From a virus: a stretch of DNA of 23,093 nucleotides. This document shows, piece after piece, positions 3 to 17,199 of the stretch (its first letter is position 1; the number at the start of each line of letters is the position of its first letter). The translations under genes were made by a program, and so were the position numbers. Location of the stretch: positions 1-23,093 of IMG/VR virus record IMGVR_UViG_3300030108_001674; one strand, given 5' to 3'. The notes below the pieces were generated by a model, which was not told where the DNA came from, did not search any database, and was given only the letters and a program-made list of their open reading frames with translations.

Positions 3-3000
3 TACACACCTGGAATCGGTGCGTCGGAGGTGATGGAGATCGCCAATGCCGTTCAACAAGGAGTCATCCGTCCTGATGCTGACTTCTTGCTGAGGGTCAA
101 GGAAGTAAGAGAAGAGAATGAAGACATCAGTGAATACGATGCAATCATTCAGGTAAATGATGAGTTCATCAAGGCCGGAAAGGGCGACTATATGTCGATG
201 GCTCCGGTCTCTGAAATCGAAGAAGAACAGAGAGCAGAAGTGCCTGTATTCGGCACACAGACGTACCAGGATGTCAGCACCACGACTGCTTCTCTCCTTG
301 TAGCCCTGAATGTCGGCAAAGCCAGCTTTATGAAGGGCTTTGAAAAAGGTCGAGGCATAAAAGGGCGAGTGTACTACGGCTTGTTGTCAGCACTCGGCGC
401 TGCTGGAGCCTACGGTCTGTCTAAGACTGCTCTCGACGCCTTGTACGGTGTTCGGTTCGGTGTAGAAGATCAAGAGTATGACATCCCCGTCCTCAAGGTC
501 GGTAAGACCTCTCGCGGTGTGGTTGACGTAGCCAAGGCATTCGGTGACGCTGTCCCAGGCGTGCCACGGTTTCAGCAGTACTTGGAACTCAGCGGACCAG
601 CTACCAGAGCCATGTTGACCACCGGCATCGTCAATATGGCCGTTGATCTGGGTCTAGCAGACAAAATATCTGAAATGCCAAGCGTGAAGGCATTCATTGA
701 GACTGCTGCTAAGAACCCATCACTCAGTGAGCAAAAAATAAAATCGTTCACGCAGAATATGCAAGCATGGGGCTTCATGCCTATGCAATGGGCGTTGCAG
801 GCCTCATACCATCCACTTGTCAGGGATGAGATGAAGCAGGCGGCTGAGAAAGTAGGTGTCAGTAAGGACTCAAGCTATTGGAATCAATACTCTGAGATGT
901 CTGAGGAGGCTCTCTCTACATTCGGAATCGATGCTGAACTGAAAGACAGAGATAAGGTATCCGAGCTTCGGTCATCTATGCTTCAAGATATCTTGAGAGA
1001 GATTGTAGGCACGGATGAGTTCAGAAGGCTGAAAAATCATGAGCGTGAGGAAGCTCTTCTCAGAATGATCAACAGGACGAACGAAGAGGTTCGCCTGAAG
1101 GCTCTCGATTACAGCGAAGATGAGTTCTACAAAGAGTACGAGAAGTTTGTTCAAAATCCAGACAAATACTCTGAATACGACAAAAAGATGGTCATCAACT
1201 CGTTTGTGAACAACTCTTCGTGGAGAAGCGCGAACGAAAAGTGGAGGGGCAAGCAACCAAATGTAAAGCTGGTGAAGTCCTTCATCAAAAGACACTTTGA
1301 ACTTGGTGGTGAGGAGCCAGATTCCGACAAGCTGCCAGAGTTTTATGAGTTGTTCAAAATGGTGCAAGATGAAGCACCGGACTCTGAGATCCAGTCTCTG
1401 CTGAATGCAATGCCGCTCGGCTATGTCATGGAGTTCAACACCTCCAACAAAGACCCCGTCTGGCGTCGACCGTCCGACGAGGAGATGCTCGACTTTGCCA
1501 AATATATCTACGATTTCAAGGTAGAGAAGCGTGGCCGTAAAGCCGCTGCTGCTGCAACCAAGAGTGTTCAGCGATCAAATTTGAAGCTCATAAATTCATC
1601 TGGTCATGGCATGAGCGTGGAGCCAACAGCATTGAATAGGCTCTTTCAGGCCTTGAACTTTACTGAGACCATGGTTGATGAGCTACCGATAACGAATCCT
1701 GCATTCATGTCACCATTCTTGGAGCGCATGGGACTACCTGGAGGTGTCTGGGGGACAAGTGCTGGGGTAGACCGTCAACTTGGTACAAACCTCAGAGCAT
1801 CAATGCCAAACTATTGGGCACGTGTCATCGGGTTCAGTAGTCAACTACTGGGTGGTACCGGCGCTGGTTTGGAGGAGGTTTATCAAGCCGCAGGCATCAA
1901 GCGTTCAGACCCTGAGTACGGTTACGCTCTCTCAGGGTATGGCCTCGATTTTTTGCCCACCATACGAGTCGCCGGATCTACCGTCACGAATGCGGTTCGC
2001 TTCGGCGGTAATCTCAGTCGCCTGTCGAAGAACCCGATGTTCAAGACCGCAAATGGTCGAGCAGCTAATACACTTGCTATGCTCGAAGCGATGGACGGCA
2101 TCCGTTCATCTAAGAGTCTTGATGAAGCCACAGTGTATCATCAGACCTTGGAATCTATCCTGAGAGATGAAATAGCCGCTGGTCGCAACCCTCTGGAGTT
2201 TCTGACCAAGGCCGAGCGAGACCTCTTTGACTCTATCTTCCTTACTAGCGGGAGAAATCCCGATCATGGAAAGGTTGCGATGGAGAAGGCCACCAAGAAA
2301 GCCAAGTATGTGCATATCGTTATTGATCAAGCTCGTAAGGATATCGGAGACAACGAGTTCAACATCTTGCGATCGTCTCCCTCTTACAAGCGACTGCGTC
2401 TTCAAATCGATCGACTCGTCCAGGGTGGAGTGATCAAGGCCGAGTACGGTGATCAGTTGATGAGCCTCATCGAGTATCAAGCAATTGTAGCCTCGAAGAG
2501 CCCAAGCAGTAAGTACATGACGCCAGAGCGTGTGCTTCAAAATGTTGCAGTCACCTACAACAAGGCACCAGGAGTTGGCATCAGTCCGACTGTCAGGATT
2601 GTTGATCGCAACAACAACCCTATTGCTGGTCAGAGAGGCATTCCTAAAGGGTACTTCGAGTACGACGATCGTACCGGGCGTGCGATCATCAACTTCTTTA
2701 AGGACGGTGACATCGACTCAGTCTGGAAGATGGAAGGTCACCTGATGTCCCACTTGATGGGTATCGATTTCAAAAACAAGGTCTTCCGATTCTTCGATCA
2801 CGAGTACGCGAGCGGCGGTCAAATCCGGCTCACAAAAACAGGGAAGCGTCAGTTTGCAGAGGCTTGGCAGGCCTATAGGCGGACTGCCGACAACAGTAAT
2901 GGGTATATCCGTCGATTGTTCGATGGCCTGTGGCTCGGACTACAGAACTTCTGGGCACGGCTTCGTCGTAAGCCTCATGTGCTTCCTAAGGAGTTGAGGA

Positions 3001-6000
3001 CATACTGGGATCTTGAGTTCGGTGCCTTGCCTACTGATGTTCGGTTCGCTCAAGCGCTGTCATCTGGGGCGATCTTCCACCGGCTTCGTTCGACGTATCA
3101 ATCATCAGATCGCGCAATCGGTGAGGCCGGTTTGATGGCGTCTCGTGAAGCGATGGTCAAAGACATGGGGTATGACGAGGCGACGATTAGGAGCCTATTC
3201 GGAGACCGTAAAACACAGGTCGTACGGAATGTCCTCGATGAATCAACGGGTCAGACTAAGCGCGTTGTAGAACAAAAGTATGAGCCACGTCAGTACGATG
3301 CCGTAGAAGCCACGGTCAAGGCAATCGCGCTGATTAAGACTGCTGACTTCCGCAAGCGCGCTAACTTGGTGGGCAGGAAAACGAGAAAGTACGCCATTGT
3401 CGGTAGTGGTCGATATCGCGTACCTCAATCGATCCTCAACAACCTGATCAATCGTGTCAATGATCGTCTCAACGGTGCGATGGGTGAGGCTTGGACACAG
3501 ACTAAGAAAAAGATTTTCCAAGTTGGTCGAGATGGTAGGAATGTTCTGAGCGATCCGTCCACGTATCCGACGAATGTGAGAGATGCTGATGTTGCGGCGT
3601 TTGCAGATCGCATGGAGGCCATGACAGGCAACCGTGACGGATTCGATGTTGCCACAAGACAGAACTTCTTCGTCTTGACTGCTCGCCAGGAGGGCGGCCT
3701 GAAGACCTTGCTTCAGGAGATCGGCAATCAGCCTGAGGCTGATGTTTTACCGATCCAGTTGCTCGATCCGTACGCAAATCTGAGGATTTTGTCGAACTCG
3801 GAATACAACAAGATCATCGAGGTAATGACCGACATTGAGGCCACTCCCCTGAACCGGAGGAGCAGGAATGATGTCAAGCCTGGTCTATTCAATGCGATAA
3901 ATGATGCAATCAAGAGTCGTAAATCCATGCAGGCGATTGCAAGCTGGTTCGACGGATTCACGAATAAATTTAAGGATGAAGACTATATACCAGATAGTGG
4001 ATCATACGACCCCGGAGCCGTTGAGATTCTGAAGGGTGGTGTGCGTAAATGGAAGAACGCAGCGCAAGAGTTACTGGAACTTTCTAAAACGAAGGATTTC
4101 GCTAAGATAGATACCGTCGGGAAGTTCTTCAAAAAATATATCGATCAATCAGTATCGAGAGTAAATCTTCAATATATCGATACACTATTCGAGTTGGTCC
4201 ATAGAATGAATGGGTTGATGGATGATGTGGAGGTAGCTGCCGTATCGGACTTGGCTGCTGCGAATGCGGCGGGTGGGGCAAATCGAACAGCACCAAGATT
4301 TAAGCTGCCTCAAAAGCTTGATATGGAATACATCACACGCAATCTGCCAGCCATTCAAGAGTTGTTGGACGGCGTATATGGAATGACAGGCAGAGAGCGT
4401 CAGGCCCTCAACATTCTTCGATCTGTCCGTGTCCGAATGAAGAGAGGCGAAAAATTAGCTGATTTCAGTGAGAACGAAGCTGCGGTTATTGTCGACGCCA
4501 TTTCAGTGATTCATGCCGGATTAAAGGTCAAAGACGACTACGTCACGGGAATCGGAGAGAAGCTCACTGTCAGAGCCCTTGTTTTGAAAAACGTATCACA
4601 ATTTGATTATGGTGATTTTTCTAGACGTAAGGGTTTATATAAAACTTATAAATCTTGGTTCAATGGTGATATACAATACTTGTTTGATCAGCCAGATATT
4701 GTATCCGATATTGCTAGAGAAAACGTTGTACCTGGTATTAGGAAGACTCTCACCACCGGAGGGCTTGGTAAAAACATTTCACTCGATGAAATTTCTTTGA
4801 TTGAAGAAATTAGTGATTCCTATAGTCGTACGACAGGTAGAGAGTTGACTGATGCCAACGTAAGAATGATCACAATGCTCACGTTGATGAAGATGGATGA
4901 GATTCAACAGGAAGTCGCCCAGGAGCTTGCTGAGTATGGATATCTGGCGACGAAACGAGAGCTTATAGGTGATCAACCATTCCGAAGTGACATCAGTCTG
5001 GACCGCGAACGGTATATTAATCGAGTCCAGTTCTACATAGATCGATCTCTCGGTTTAGCTGACACCTATAGGCGCGGCACAGCAAAAGGTAGGCCTTCAA
5101 AGCCTGGAAAGGACATGTACGGCCCCACTGAGCAGACGAGCGGTAAGTTCAATTCTGCCGATGCATTTGATGAACTGGATTTTCAAGCTCAACATGATGC
5201 TAATCAAATCATTCGGAGAGCCGGAATCCGCAAAGCGCGTGAGGAGTCTGTATTTGTCAACGTTGGAGACAAGCAGTTCCTCGTACCCAAGAATATGTTC
5301 GATTTCCTCCAAGAACAGATGGAGGCGAAGTACAACATCAGATTCCAGGTGGACTGGGGTAAGGGAGGATCAGGTGAGTACTTCTTGCGTGGCCGCCCTG
5401 AGAACAGAGTCCTTCGCAACCTTCAAGCCACTCTGAGTGCAGCCGGTCGTGCAGCATCGATTCTTGGGCCTACAGGGTTCTATACTGGTCTGCTGATTGG
5501 TACGGGTGGCATTCCTATGATTGGCTACGGTATGGGTGTGTTTATCGGTGGCCTGAGTCAACTACACCTCGGATCTGGTGCTACAGCGGTTGTTCGTGAT
5601 GCGATCACAGGCCCGCTCACGCTCGCTGAGACGTTTGCTGGAACGACCGTCAGAGGGCTCGCGGAGACCGATTTCCGAATCCCGTTTACTGAGCGGTACG
5701 TGGGCATGTCCGATGCTGCCCGCAGCAAGCTTGCAAGCCTTGCGGATAGCATCCAGAGTCGCACTAGCTTTACGGCTGGAGTGTTGGCGAGATTGCACGG
5801 GAAGGATGCTGCTGTACCCTTCACCAAGCCGATACTCATGCCTGATGGCCGCGTCTTCACTGCTGACCAGATCGCCAACAGCGTGCGCCGTTATGGCTGG
5901 CGCAGCGCAATGGTCGACCGATTCCAAGACACCAAGGACATCAATCTGTTCTACGAGCGCTTCTCCAAGAGCAATCCTGTTCTGATGACAACGAGCATCT

Positions 6001-7436
6001 CGACACTGCTTGGTTTGACTAGTGGAGCAACGTTGGGCAGTTCGGCTGTGTTCGGACTAACTCTCGGCTACATGCTCAAGCCTGGAAACATCTTCAGTAA
6101 GGCGCACAAGTACTACAGAGAAGCGTTCTCTGCCATCGATAGCTTCTTGCGTGTCAAGATCTTGATGGATGAACTCAAGCAGGGCAAGAGTCTTGAGGAT
6201 GCAGCAATACGAGTTCGAGATGTCGCTCTCGACTACTCGAACCTTAGTGAGGCTGAGAAGAGCTTCATTGGACGCTACTTCGCGTTCTACACGTACTATT
6301 CGCAAGCAGCAAAACTGTACGCTCAGACATTGATCGAGAATCCACAGAGGATCATCAATCAACTCAAGTTCGTTCAAAAAACCCAGCAAGAGCGAACAGA
6401 TAAGCGTCTGGCTCAAGGTGATCTGCCATCATGGGATGCATTCAGAGCATTCATTCCTATTGAAATCGATGGTCAGTACTACAGAATGCCTTTCCTGATT
6501 AGTGGCGACATCACGGCGATTCCCATCGAATTATTCGGTGCAGCATCGTTCCTCATCAGCGGCTTTGAGGATGAAGAAGCAGTTCAGGAAGTCATGAAGC
6601 TGTTTGGCCGATTGTCTCCCGCAGCGCAATACTCTCTTGAAATCCTCTTCGATGTAAATCCAATGACAGGGAAAACGCGGTCTAGATCTGGTTTTGTTGT
6701 TCCCTATGAGATGATTGAGCTTGATCGGCGCGTGCTCGGTGGTGCCCTCTATGACCTGCTCGACATCGAGTACAAGAGTCTGGATGAAATCATCACAGAT
6801 GAGGGAGAAAAGAAAGACAAGGTCCGTGTCTCATTGAGCAAGATGGATCACCCAGGCAGAGGTGTCTACATTGCTCGCAATAGAAGGGCGTACATTGCTC
6901 TGTTTGACGCCATCCAATCACCAGTGACTGGCCGTATGGGCAGCAACATGCTGGCCTTGTCTAAGGCAAACATGGGTGGATTCGAGATGATGCTCGATGC
7001 AGCCGGATTCATTCAGGACAATGTCACTGATGGTGATCCGATACTGAGTAAGGTCGGGCCACTCATTCAACTCGGCCTCGTCAAGAACAAGGATGCTGGT
7101 CCATCGACGCTGATCGACGTCGACAACTACGTGGACCCGATGGATCCCATGAATGCCCCGGTTGGTGATCTCAAGCTGTTCCAGCAGAATCAGCAGCTAA
7201 GCACTGCGAGGCTTGAGCTTCTCATCGATCAAGGAAAAGCCTTTGAGAAGGATGGAAGGGTCTACGTCTACACTGATCAGTTCTATCCAGGCGAGGCCGC
7301 CAAGACTATAGGCTTCAGCTTGTCACCTAAGTTAAATACTGACAAGAATCTCTCTATGAAACTTAGAGCACGTATTGCTCGGCTGAAAGAGATCATTGGT
7401 GACGAGAACAATCAAGCTAAGGGCAATTCAAACTAA
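3..7436 (+). CDS. Giant phage structural/internal virion protein (5' end outside window)
   Basis: The reading frame is open from the first complete codon of the window and ends at TAA 7434-7436, giving at least 2,477 codons. GTG 30 and ATG 33 are possible starts, but the GGAGG in front lies only two bases from the ATG and the upstream codons read as plausible protein, so I treat the gene as 5'-truncated. I recognise no enzymatic domain. The protein is mostly charged and helical, with an Ala/Gly-rich hydrophobic stretch near residues 90-135, a Gly-rich hydrophobic stretch near 1810-1850, and another near 1985-2015. This mix of long helical regions with late hydrophobic segments is what ejected internal virion or large polyvalent phage proteins look like, and the structural genes downstream agree. 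I found no T7/N4 RNA polymerase motifs. Role as virion/ejection protein is inference. An AT-rich patch lies inside at about 4570-4830. Confidence 0.85.
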   Translation, partial: YTPGIGASEVMEIANAVQQGVIRPDADFLLRVKEVREENEDISEYDAIIQVNDEFIKAGKGDYMSMAPVSEIEEEQRAEVPVFGTQTYQDVSTTTASLLVALNVGKASFMKGFEKGRGIKGRVYYGLLSALGAAGAYGLSKTALDALYGVRFGVEDQEYDIPVLKVGKTSRGVVDVAKAFGDAVPGVPRFQQYLELSGPATRAMLTTGIVNMAVDLGLADKISEMPSVKAFIETAAKNPSLSEQKIKSFTQNMQAWGFMPMQWALQASYHPLVRDEMKQAAEKVGVSKDSSYWNQYSEMSEEALSTFGIDAELKDRDKVSELRSSMLQDILREIVGTDEFRRLKNHEREEALLRMINRTNEEVRLKALDYSEDEFYKEYEKFVQNPDKYSEYDKKMVINSFVNNSSWRSANEKWRGKQPNVKLVKSFIKRHFELGGEEPDSDKLPEFYELFKMVQDEAPDSEIQSLLNAMPLGYVMEFNTSNKDPVWRRPSDEEMLDFAKYIYDFKVEKRGRKAAAAATKSVQRSNLKLINSSGHGMSVEPTALNRLFQALNFTETMVDELPITNPAFMSPFLERMGLPGGVWGTSAGVDRQLGTNLRASMPNYWARVIGFSSQLLGGTGAGLEEVYQAAGIKRSDPEYGYALSGYGLDFLPTIRVAGSTVTNAVRFGGNLSRLSKNPMFKTANGRAANTLAMLEAMDGIRSSKSLDEATVYHQTLESILRDEIAAGRNPLEFLTKAERDLFDSIFLTSGRNPDHGKVAMEKATKKAKYVHIVIDQARKDIGDNEFNILRSSPSYKRLRLQIDRLVQGGVIKAEYGDQLMSLIEYQAIVASKSPSSKYMTPERVLQNVAVTYNKAPGVGISPTVRIVDRNNNPIAGQRGIPKGYFEYDDRTGRAIINFFKDGDIDSVWKMEGHLMSHLMGIDFKNKVFRFFDHEYASGGQIRLTKTGKRQFAEAWQAYRRTADNSNGYIRRLFDGLWLGLQNFWARLRRKPHVLPKELRTYWDLEFGALPTDVRFAQALSSGAIFHRLRSTYQSSDRAIGEAGLMASREAMVKDMGYDEATIRSLFGDRKTQVVRNVLDESTGQTKRVVEQKYEPRQYDAVEATVKAIALIKTADFRKRANLVGRKTRKYAIVGSGRYRVPQSILNNLINRVNDRLNGAMGEAWTQTKKKIFQVGRDGRNVLSDPSTYPTNVRDADVAAFADRMEAMTGNRDGFDVATRQNFFVLTARQEGGLKTLLQEIGNQPEADVLPIQLLDPYANLRILSNSEYNKIIEVMTDIEATPLNRRSRNDVKPGLFNAINDAIKSRKSMQAIASWFDGFTNKFKDEDYIPDSGSYDPGAVEILKGGVRKWKNAAQELLELSKTKDFAKIDTVGKFFKKYIDQSVSRVNLQYIDTLFELVHRMNGLMDDVEVAAVSDLAAANAAGGANRTAPRFKLPQKLDMEYITRNLPAIQELLDGVYGMTGRERQALNILRSVRVRMKRGEKLADFSENEAAVIVDAISVIHAGLKVKDDYVTGIGEKLTVRALVLKNVSQFDYGDFSRRKGLYKTYKSWFNGDIQYLFDQPDIVSDIARENVVPGIRKTLTTGGLGKNISLDEISLIEEISDSYSRTTGRELTDANVRMITMLTLMKMDEIQQEVAQELAEYGYLATKRELIGDQPFRSDISLDRERYINRVQFYIDRSLGLADTYRRGTAKGRPSKPGKDMYGPTEQTSGKFNSADAFDELDFQAQHDANQIIRRAGIRKAREESVFVNVGDKQFLVPKNMFDFLQEQMEAKYNIRFQVDWGKGGSGEYFLRGRPENRVLRNLQATLSAAGRAASILGPTGFYTGLLIGTGGIPMIGYGMGVFIGGLSQLHLGSGATAVVRDAITGPLTLAETFAGTTVRGLAETDFRIPFTERYVGMSDAARSKLASLADSIQSRTSFTAGVLARLHGKDAAVPFTKPILMPDGRVFTADQIANSVRRYGWRSAMVDRFQDTKDINLFYERFSKSNPVLMTTSISTLLGLTSGATLGSSAVFGLTLGYMLKPGNIFSKAHKYYREAFSAIDSFLRVKILMDELKQGKSLEDAAIRVRDVALDYSNLSEAEKSFIGRYFAFYTYYSQAAKLYAQTLIENPQRIINQLKFVQKTQQERTDKRLAQGDLPSWDAFRAFIPIEIDGQYYRMPFLISGDITAIPIELFGAASFLISGFEDEEAVQEVMKLFGRLSPAAQYSLEILFDVNPMTGKTRSRSGFVVPYEMIELDRRVLGGALYDLLDIEYKSLDEIITDEGEKKDKVRVSLSKMDHPGRGVYIARNRRAYIALFDAIQSPVTGRMGSNMLALSKANMGGFEMMLDAAGFIQDNVTDGDPILSKVGPLIQLGLVKNKDAGPSTLIDVDNYVDPMDPMNAPVGDLKLFQQNQQLSTARLELLIDQGKAFEKDGRVYVYTDQFYPGEAAKTIGFSLSPKLNTDKNLSMKLRARIARLKEIIGDENNQAKGNSN

Positions 7437-15127: not shown

Positions 15128-15733
15128 TTAGCTCTTTTTAGCCGGTGTCGCGCCAGCAGGGGTAGGCGCGATGGCGTCGTTGAGCATATCCAGAACCTTC
15201 ATCAGGCCCTCTGGCGGGCCGTCATCACGCGCGACCACCTTGACATCGTACTTGGCACTGTTGTCGCTCTTGCGACTGTTCTCGCTGTGGTTGGCTACGG
15301 AGCCGTGAACGGTCACGTCACAGCTAAACAGGCCAGCGTTGTACTTGGCGTGCGCTGTAAGCTCAGCCTTTGTGTCGGATGTGGTCTTACTGGATGTCGA
15401 TGACTTCACTTCCATGGTGAAACGGACCTCAGCCTCCTTCACGGAGAGAGAGGGCGTGTTGATGATGGCCAGCAGTGGAACTTGTAGGTCAACCTTCTCC
15501 AGTGATGTGGAACCATCAGGAGCCGTGGTGGGGCGGTTGAAGCTGAAGTCGACCGTGCGGGCACTCATGTTGCCGCCACCGGCATCGTTCAGTCCGACAT
15601 CCTTGATGAAGTCGCTGGAAGCCTTGGCAAGGAGCGTCTGAGCGCTACAGGCGGCCTTGAGTGGGCCACCGATAAGCTGGTCCATGGGGAGACCACCAAA
15701 CTGGTCTGACATCTTTACAAGTTGATCTGGCAT
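15128..15733 (-). CDS. DUF2589-like protein, 201 aa
   Basis: Two adjacent ATG codons lie at 15736 and 15733; AGGAG ends three bases before the first and six before the second, so I choose 15733. From memory of the family, the N-terminus (LPMDQLIGGPLKAACSAQTLLAKASSDFIKDVG, residues about 15-47) is the typical DUF2589 opening helix pair. A beta-rich middle follows (VDLQVPLLAIINTPSLSVKEAEVRFTMEV, then repeated amphipathic strands) and the protein ends with the family-like PPEGLMKVLDMLNDAIAP and a Lys tail. The function of DUF2589 is unknown to me. The gene is last in the exonuclease/RecT operon, its ribosome site overlapping the stop of a related gene. I see no signal peptide or membrane segment. 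Confidence 0.8.
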   Translation of the reverse strand: MPDQLVKMSDQFGGLPMDQLIGGPLKAACSAQTLLAKASSDFIKDVGLNDAGGGNMSARTVDFSFNRPTTAPDGSTSLEKVDLQVPLLAIINTPSLSVKEAEVRFTMEVKSSTSSKTTSDTKAELTAHAKYNAGLFSCDVTVHGSVANHSENSRKSDNSAKYDVKVVARDDGPPEGLMKVLDMLNDAIAPTPAGATPAKKS

Positions 15734-15742
15734 CATTTACTC

Positions 15743-16237
15743 CTATGGAATCAGCTTTATTAGCTGGTCATCGATTCTTGCATAACCTTCAGGGGGTTCA
15801 CTGCCCTTGAAAATCAGCTTTACCTTAGCAGCATTGTTCTGCTTTTTGAACCATGACGGAGTGTTGGCGCAAGGCCGGACCATCAACTTGCCTTTCTTCT
15901 TGTCCGCCGTAAGCCCAGAGATCTCGACAGACATCTCCACTTCAAGCGTATCCACACGCAGGCTTTGACCCGTCGTGAGCGACTGGAGGGGGACCGGAAC
16001 TCTCTTGTGTACCAGTACTCCATCTTCCCATGTTGGGATTTCCATGACGACCATGCGAGGTACATAAATGGGCCTTCCATGTTCATCATTAAGTGGCTCC
16101 CCGGAATCATCAGTCTTTTGCTCCCAGAACTCCTCGTTCGTAATCGAGTCAAGCTCATGGCGCTCGGCAATATCTGTGGCCGCGATGACGGCAGACTGAA
16201 TCGAATGGACAATGTCGTCTAATGAGTGATCAGCCAT
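15743..16237 (-). CDS. DUF2589-like paralogue, 164 aa
   Basis: ATG 16237 has GGAGAG a few bases upstream, between the tRNA and the gene. The N-terminus (MADHSLDDIVHSIQSAVIAATDIAERHELDSI) has the two-helix look of DUF2589 proteins, followed by an insertion naming an acidic loop (DDSGEPLNDEHGRPIYVPRMVVMEIP). The segment VPVPLQSLTTGQSLRVDTLEVEMSVEISG matches VPLLAIINTPSLSVKEAEVRFTMEV of the next gene in order and spacing, and VKLIFKGSEPPEGYARIDDQLIKLIP matches its C-terminal PPEG segment. The two are thus diverged relatives, probably forming a hetero-complex or sharing a binding partner. This copy lacks the LIGGPL element. Function unknown. Confidence 0.78.
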   Translation of the reverse strand: MADHSLDDIVHSIQSAVIAATDIAERHELDSITNEEFWEQKTDDSGEPLNDEHGRPIYVPRMVVMEIPTWEDGVLVHKRVPVPLQSLTTGQSLRVDTLEVEMSVEISGLTADKKKGKLMVRPCANTPSWFKKQNNAAKVKLIFKGSEPPEGYARIDDQLIKLIP

Positions 16238-16255
16238 GATCTCTCCAAATTATGA

Positions 16256-16331
16256 TGGCGGGGCGGTTGGACTCGAACCAACAACGTTCGGGATTACAAC
16301 CCGATGCACCTGCCAGTGGCGCCTCACCCCA
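16256..16331 (-). tRNA. tRNA with anticodon GUA (Tyr), class-I shape
   Basis: Read on the minus strand from 16331, the 76 bases fold as a cloverleaf: acceptor TGGGGTG/CGCCCCG (7 bp, two G-U pairs), D arm GCGCC-ACTGGCA-GGTGC, anticodon arm TCGGG-TTGTAAT-CCCGA (anticodon GTA, T33 present), variable loop ACGTT and T arm GTTGG-TTCGAGT-CCAAC. The sequence ends in GCCA. Oddities: position 8 is A instead of the invariant U, the 1-72 pair would be U-G with C73 followed by CA, or the helix is one pair short with G73 and an encoded CCA. Bacterial Tyr tRNAs normally have a long variable arm, which is absent here; the ends look more like bacterial tRNA-Gln. It abuts the stop codon of the FmdB-like gene and is likely cut from the operon transcript. 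Confidence 0.75.
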
Positions 16332-16535
16332 TTACTTTTTCTTCAGGCCGTAGTTGTCCCTCGCCCAGCCTTCACCCTTGAGGCTGAAGTTGGTCACGCA
16401 TATCTTGCGCTTCATGTCGACTGACGTGCCCAGGTCGAGAGCACAAGCCCCACAGTGGGGGCTTGGGTCTCCGAATGCCTGTAAAACCTCAACAGTCAGA
16501 TCGCAGTTAGGACAGACGAACTGATACAACGGCAT
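16332..16535 (-). CDS. FmdB-type zinc ribbon protein, 67 aa
   Basis: ATG 16535 gives the family start MPLYQFVCPNC; an upstream in-frame start would add 14 unrelated residues and overlap the preceding gene. Cys8, Cys11, Cys28 and Cys31 form two CxxC pairs of a zinc ribbon, and the end (RKICVTNFSLKGEGWARDNYG) is the conserved FmdB tail (F-x-L-K-G-x-G-W). FmdB-family proteins are small putative regulators first linked to formamidase/amidase genes; they are frequent in phages, where the role is not known to me. The start lies four bases after the TGA of the upstream gene with a weak ribosome site, so translation is likely coupled. The stop codon touches the first base of the tRNA. Confidence 0.85.
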   Translation of the reverse strand: MPLYQFVCPNCDLTVEVLQAFGDPSPHCGACALDLGTSVDMKRKICVTNFSLKGEGWARDNYGLKKK

Positions 16536-16539
16536 CGTA

Positions 16540-17199
16540 TCAGTCGTTGAAGACCACAGGCTCTGGCTCAGGCTCACCCGATGCTGCCACTGGCTCAGCC
16601 GGAATCGTAGCAGACGTTGTCGTCTTGGCTGCGATTGCCTCTACAAGCTTCTCAATCATGCCTGCAAGATGTGAGTCATCAGTCTGACGGTTGGTCAGAG
16701 CATCAACAACCTCTTGAGGGATCGGGTTCGTCTGAACGTTTACGGTGGTAGCAACAGGCGCTCCGTTTCGGTACTGAAGATCCTCATTGTTGTCGACATC
16801 GACAAACTTGACCACGATGAACAGACGCTCAACCTTGTCTGAGTCGTGATCAATCTTGCTCTCGAACTCAAGCAGCTTCCAGTCACCGTTAGGCTGACTG
16901 TTCCGAATGGTCTTCGTCATGCCTGCGATGGTTGCATTCAGCATGTTCGCCCATGTTGGCTCAGTCACGTTGCCCTGGAGGTTGTGAAGAGGCCATGACG
17001 AATCAGCCAGACGAGTCCGGTATCCCTCACAGTTTGAGACCTGTGCATCAGTGAGTTGCTGCTCACCGAACACATCATTCACCACCCGCAGAAGCAGAGA
17101 CGTTTGGTTGATTGTAGGGATCTCAGATTCATTCGACTTAGGCTTGGTACGCTCACCGAATGGATTCTTCGCCTTCTTAGCTTCATCAAACAAACTCAT
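16540..17199 (-). CDS. Unknown protein with acidic tail, possible ssDNA-binding accessory, 219 aa
   Basis: ATG 17199 is preceded by a strong AAGGAGA. The N-terminal 30 residues are Lys-rich and polar (FDEAKKAKNPFGERTKPK), the middle (about 33-150) looks globular with conserved-looking aromatic positions (SSWPLHNLQGNV, EPTWANMLNATIAGM) and beta strands (DKVERLFIVVKFVDVDNNED). The last 30 residues are disordered, rich in Pro and Glu (EPVAASGEPEPEPVVFND), ending with an acidic-hydrophobic tip. A globular domain with an acidic tip tail, encoded next to RecT, exonuclease and HNH genes, is compatible with an ssDNA-binding or recombination accessory protein. I do not recognise the family and the tip is not the classical DDDIPF, so this is a weak inference. 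Confidence 0.78.
   Translation of the reverse strand: MSLFDEAKKAKNPFGERTKPKSNESEIPTINQTSLLLRVVNDVFGEQQLTDAQVSNCEGYRTRLADSSWPLHNLQGNVTEPTWANMLNATIAGMTKTIRNSQPNGDWKLLEFESKIDHDSDKVERLFIVVKFVDVDNNEDLQYRNGAPVATTVNVQTNPIPQEVVDALTNRQTDDSHLAGMIEKLVEAIAAKTTTSATIPAEPVAASGEPEPEPVVFND

Follow-up and report, generated by a model that had tools for sequence, protein, structure and literature searches.

Our analyses indicate that a tRNA gene carrying a Tyr anticodon in an uncultured bacteriophage is probably an anticodon-shifted ("remoulded") phage tRNA-Asn, one that would have lost Asn decoding, would at best be poorly charged, and would be tolerated as a dispensable gene. The gene lies in the 23,093-nucleotide stretch of viral DNA analysed here (the window), taken from a virus record of 29,095 bases, itself a fragment, of which it is the sole tRNA. 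Judging from the orthologous GUU gene at the same site in related phages and from sequence identity, its body is Asn-derived; this ancestry, the restriction of the changes to one lineage and the intact cloverleaf are the parts of the explanation that we count as established. In the proposed scenario, A72 would have been lost and base 36 changed within one small lineage, from U (Asn) to G (His) and then to A (Tyr). The tRNA would be co-transcribed with the surrounding operon and excised by host tRNA-processing enzymes, Asn codons would no longer be served, and charging with Tyr would be poor or nil. A folded tRNA in transition would persist, its alteration being tolerated because the phage group can do without this tRNA.

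A minus-strand tRNA-Tyr (gta) was called by ARAGORN at positions 16257-16331, and the gene matched the Rfam tRNA covariance model RF00005 with 37.7 bits, above the curated gathering cut-off of 29. Read from 16331 to 16256, its sequence is UGGGGUG AG GCGCC ACUGGCA GGUGC A UCGGG UUGUAAU CCCGA ACGUU GUUGG UUCGAGU CCAAC CGCCCC GCCA, which corresponds to a class-I shape with a variable loop of five bases (ACGUU) and an A at position 8. The first-pass annotation had described a class-I-shaped GUA tRNA between two operon genes, with a five-base variable loop, A8 and an ambiguous 1-72 end, and had named ARAGORN as a check; this description was borne out by that program, by Rfam, by the coordinates and by the absence of A72. 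The 3' acceptor end reads CGCCCC-GCCA in the window as compared with CGCCCCAGCCA in relatives; it lacks A72, which makes the 1-72 end irregular. Two readings of this end are possible: either base 72 is missing and G73 is kept, or a U1-G72 pair is followed by C73. An antisense open frame crosses the tRNA on the plus strand (16236-16424, reading ...GGAVGLEPTTFG...) and is not a gene, false translation of the antisense strand of a tRNA being a usual artefact.

Table 1. Coordinates of the tRNA gene, its parts and its neighbours in the window.
Feature	Position	Strand	Basis or remark
p164, DUF2589 gene, downstream	15743..16237	minus	Pfam DUF2589
tRNA gene, anticodon GUA, encoded CCA, Asn-derived body	16256..16331	minus	ARAGORN, Rfam RF00005, orthologous tRNA-Asn at the site in relatives
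A72-less junction, CCCC/GCCA	16259..16260	minus	CCCCAGCCA in relatives such as L035
Anticodon	16295..16297	minus	Base 36 = 16295
D arm, five-pair stem with C14-G21	16306..16322	minus	Two D-stem pairs changed on both sides; all 17 sequences pair
p81, zinc-ribbon protein gene, upstream	16332..16577	minus	Pfam Zn_ribbon_8

The TAA stop codon of p81 directly abuts U1 of the tRNA, the base preceding U1 being the A of the stop, and the start codon of p164 lies 18 bases past the encoded CCA. The minus-strand run of genes around the tRNA also includes RecT, a RecE-like exonuclease and two helicase/primase-type genes. Two adjacent minus-strand genes (15128-15736 and 15743-16237) both match DUF2589, a family without a described function for which a literature search gave one unrelated mention, and positions 30-7436 on the plus strand encode a protein of 2468 residues with no match in PHROGs, Pfam or cultured phages. 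No cultured phage relative was found in INPHARED with p164, the 2468-residue protein or RecT; the first two gave no match, and all RecT matches were below 60% identity. A genome collection searched for the host with a RecT alignment gave no relative, and a search of the collection for a host tRNA donor, using the pattern of the unusual tRNA core described below, gave no match.

A RecT protein search of IMG/VR yielded 57 related loci, and two IMG/VR scans that used the 5' and 3' tRNA halves yielded 27 distinct alleles. Among the related loci that cover the site between the same flanking genes, those with a tRNA there mostly have an Asn (GUU) anticodon, while L001 and L004 have His (GUG) and L043, like the window, has Tyr (GUA). 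Twenty-five of the 27 alleles combine GUU with A72 and G73; the remaining two, GUA and GUG, are the only alleles without A72, and an IMG/VR scan for a base other than T at position 36 returned only L001, L004 and L043 beside the window. By position and body the window tRNA belongs to the phage tRNA-Asn family of this site, sharing with the GUU genes of the uncultured phages L050, L007 and L037 an odd core (A8 and a five-pair D stem), and being 92% identical to that of L050. It departs from them at base 36, at base 38, at one variable-loop base and at A72, so that GUU with U1-A72 and G73 is not retained and Asn codons are not read. The nearest conventional tRNAs are also tRNA-Asn (L092, 86%; L089, 78%). 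The first-pass annotation had proposed a former tRNA-Gln with a changed anticodon; the anticodon has indeed changed, but the parent is Asn, Gln ancestry being ruled out by synteny and by identity (61% with E. coli tRNA-Gln as compared with 78-92% with the tRNA-Asn of related and other phages). The Gln-like look of the acceptor ends arises because U1-A72 with G73 is common to Asn and Gln tRNAs.

The site itself is variable in this phage group: it may be empty or occupied by a tRNA, by the truncated beginning of one, or by a stretch of other sequence of about 0.5-1.1 kb (L002, L003, L006, L013, L019, L053). L002 and L003 cleanly lack the tRNA; L053, and probably also L005 and L006, have a cut-off start of it. 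The phage group is often without the tRNA, which has been lost repeatedly at this site.

Loss of A72 and change of base 36 are found only in a clade of four contigs, namely the window and L043 (GUA) and L001 and L004 (GUG), among which base 36 (16295) is the sole variable base of 76, A in the former pair and G in the latter. Over about 3.8 kb around the tRNA, divergence among the window, L043 and L001 is 2.1-2.4%; L004 is 5.5-6.3% from these three and branches outside them. Because L004 (GUG) lies outside L001, the window and L043, with Asn outermost, the simplest order of events at the anticodon would be GUU to GUG to GUA, that is, base 36 from U to G to A. Assembly error is unlikely, as GUA and GUG are each supported by two contigs that were assembled separately, with flanks 2-6% different. 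Phylogenetic signals around the tRNA conflict, and recombination is likely to have occurred there. Compared with the window, L050 differs at 3/324 positions in the downstream gene, at 6/76 in the tRNA and by 33% upstream; given this upstream difference, a recombination point at or beside the tRNA fits equally well as rapid change of the tRNA after the split from L050, and the latter is not claimed.

Selection within the four-contig clade is not demonstrable because the clade is shallow and the sequence flanking the tRNA is conserved to nearly the same degree, with 13 variable sites in 624 bases. From this local variation about 1.6 changes would be expected in the 76-base tRNA and one was seen, the probability that the remaining 75 bases would all stay unchanged being 0.21. 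Two points weigh against the preferred reading. A gene that was merely lapsing would be expected to suffer damage to its stems in time, and there is none, in a clade that is shallow; and the location of the sole change in the anticodon, which makes up 3 of the 76 bases, hints at something besides drift.

A fold of the family beyond chance is well supported by covariation: among 17 compared alleles, all 21 stem pairs form in every one, and eight pairs have changed on both sides, as compared with 1.5 in shuffles and none in slid controls. The RNAfold energy of the single window sequence is ordinary (z -1.2). In the window tRNA, stems and T loop are undamaged, the D loop keeps its GG, and CCA is encoded. 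The core is unusual in having A8 (16324) and C14-G21 in place of the usual U8-A14. Since the conventional tRNA-Asn of other phages in the set (L092, L098 and L089) combine U8 and A14 with the acceptor stem of the odd-core family, the odd core has arisen from an ordinary tRNA-Asn. A8 and the five-pair D stem are a feature of the phage tRNA-Asn family of 27 alleles (e.g. L058, L061, L074 and L082). The odd-core tRNA stands beside a second, conventional tRNA-Asn in L058, L061, L062, L073, L074, L078, L082, L083, L085 and L090, and may therefore serve more than Asn supply.

Among the identity rules for bacteria (PMC9976931), Tyr requires A73 and G1-C72, and Asn requires G73 together with the GUU anticodon; for His the elements are G-1 and C73, although some alpha-proteobacteria follow other rules. 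The window tRNA has the GUA anticodon of a bacterial tRNA-Tyr (16297-16295), but neither the long variable arm of class II nor A73 with G1-C72, as it carries U1 and its base 73 may be either G or C, according to the reading; by the Asn rule, it is the anticodon that does not fit. In this the gene is as unlike a normal bacterial tRNA-Tyr as first noted. Without the Tyr signals of bacteria, charging with Tyr would be poor or nil, and normal Tyr charging is unlikely, bearing in mind that the rules derive from few organisms and may not fit the host of this phage. A comparison of codon use, which had been suggested as a check, revealed no special demand for Tyr (28 per 1000 as compared with 45 for Asn and 15 for His).

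These identity rules bear on a functional switch, in which the gene was retooled into a working tRNA-His and then into a tRNA-Tyr used by the host of the phage. Were U1 to pair with G72 after the loss of A72, base 73 would become C, the bacterial His discriminator, and the changes of U36 to G and C38 to U give the loop UUGUGAU, confirmed by sequence to be that of E. coli tRNA-His, so that C73, G36 and U38 represent three changes in one direction. However, the base before U1 is the A of a stop codon and not G-1, which is the main His element of bacteria; the GCCA end is just as compatible with a retained G73 and a missing base 72; and U38 is not diagnostic, as another tRNA-His among the related loci (L093) has A38. 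The Tyr allele in turn lacks A73, G1-C72 and the long variable arm, although alloacceptor shifts in eukaryotes often violate known identity rules and yet seem to persist (PMC3923123). A passing His function of the GUG allele is thinkable, and a switch through His to Tyr seems unlikely.

The tRNAs cleaved by colicin E5 form the GUN class (Asn, His, Tyr and Asp), and the three anticodons observed at this site are all GUN. The gene might in principle encode a decoy, or a resistant tRNA, directed against host nucleases that cut this class, its anticodon varying only within the class; there are established examples of phage tRNAs that withstand, or compensate for, defences based on tRNA cutting (PMC10264068, PMC11555353, PMC13096335). 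The restriction to GUN nevertheless carries little weight, since there were two events and changes at base 36 suffice to explain it, and the seven neighbouring proteins scanned included no defence-related gene, giving only weak HNH matches. Moreover, the phage tRNA-Tyr that offsets retron-Eco7 lost its effect when its anticodon was changed, which argues for a translational role (PMC11555353); as that anti-defence tRNA needs its anticodon, a decoy role is not simply transferable to the window tRNA, and we hold it to be decidedly improbable. The broader proposition that selection moved one tRNA of this phage lineage through the GUN anticodons, from Asn to His to Tyr, whether as a decoding switch or in evasion of nucleases, appears rather unlikely.

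An equally doubtful alternative to the decoy is a plain pseudogene, in which the loss of A72 ended processing or charging and the anticodon drifted. The coincidence of A72 loss and anticodon change, both confined to the four-contig clade, and the repeated loss of the tRNA at this site are in line with this, but the paired stems, T loop, D-loop GG and encoded CCA have all been preserved, and none of the differences from the L050 allele (36, 38, variable loop and 3' end) lies in a stem. Finally, acquisition of an archaeal or eukaryotic-type tRNA-Tyr, which is naturally of class I and would account for the shape and the GUA anticodon, is virtually untenable, as such tRNAs require C1-G72 and A73 (PMC9976931) and the hypothesis is contradicted by U1, by the absence of A73 and by synteny, the same-site ortholog being a tRNA-Asn at 92% identity.

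Alloacceptor anticodon shifts have been described in metazoan mitochondria, under the name of "remoulding" (PMC4783518), and in eukaryotic nuclear genomes (PMC3923123). The preferred reading of the window gene, a remoulded phage tRNA-Asn, shares with these cases an orthologous tRNA at one site that combines the anticodon of a new amino acid with an ancestral body and accompanying extra changes; by synteny, the ancestry of the body differs from the anticodon, as defines a remoulded tRNA, its function with the new amino acid being putative. In contrast to the mitochondrial and nuclear cases, it belongs to a bacteriophage, is present in a single copy without tRNA duplication of the mitochondrial type, and has lost A72, and its shallow clade has two successive anticodons. 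The tRNA-Tyr of phages T5 and T6, which offset retron-Eco7 and Septu (PMC11555353, PMC13096335), are likewise phage-encoded with a Tyr anticodon, but they have a distinctive variable loop, are cleaved or resistant there and require their anticodon, whereas the window tRNA is of class I and Asn-derived. Anticodon shifts as such are already known; for phages, we found no report of an alloacceptor shift in the open-access literature searched, the coverage of which is incomplete.

The locus offers a small, clear example of a change of tRNA label in a phage, and a caution that annotation of phage tRNAs by anticodon only can mislead. The presence of Asn, His and Tyr alleles at one locus of otherwise nearly identical phages would provide a natural test of whether phage tRNAs are charged and take part in translation, or act otherwise.
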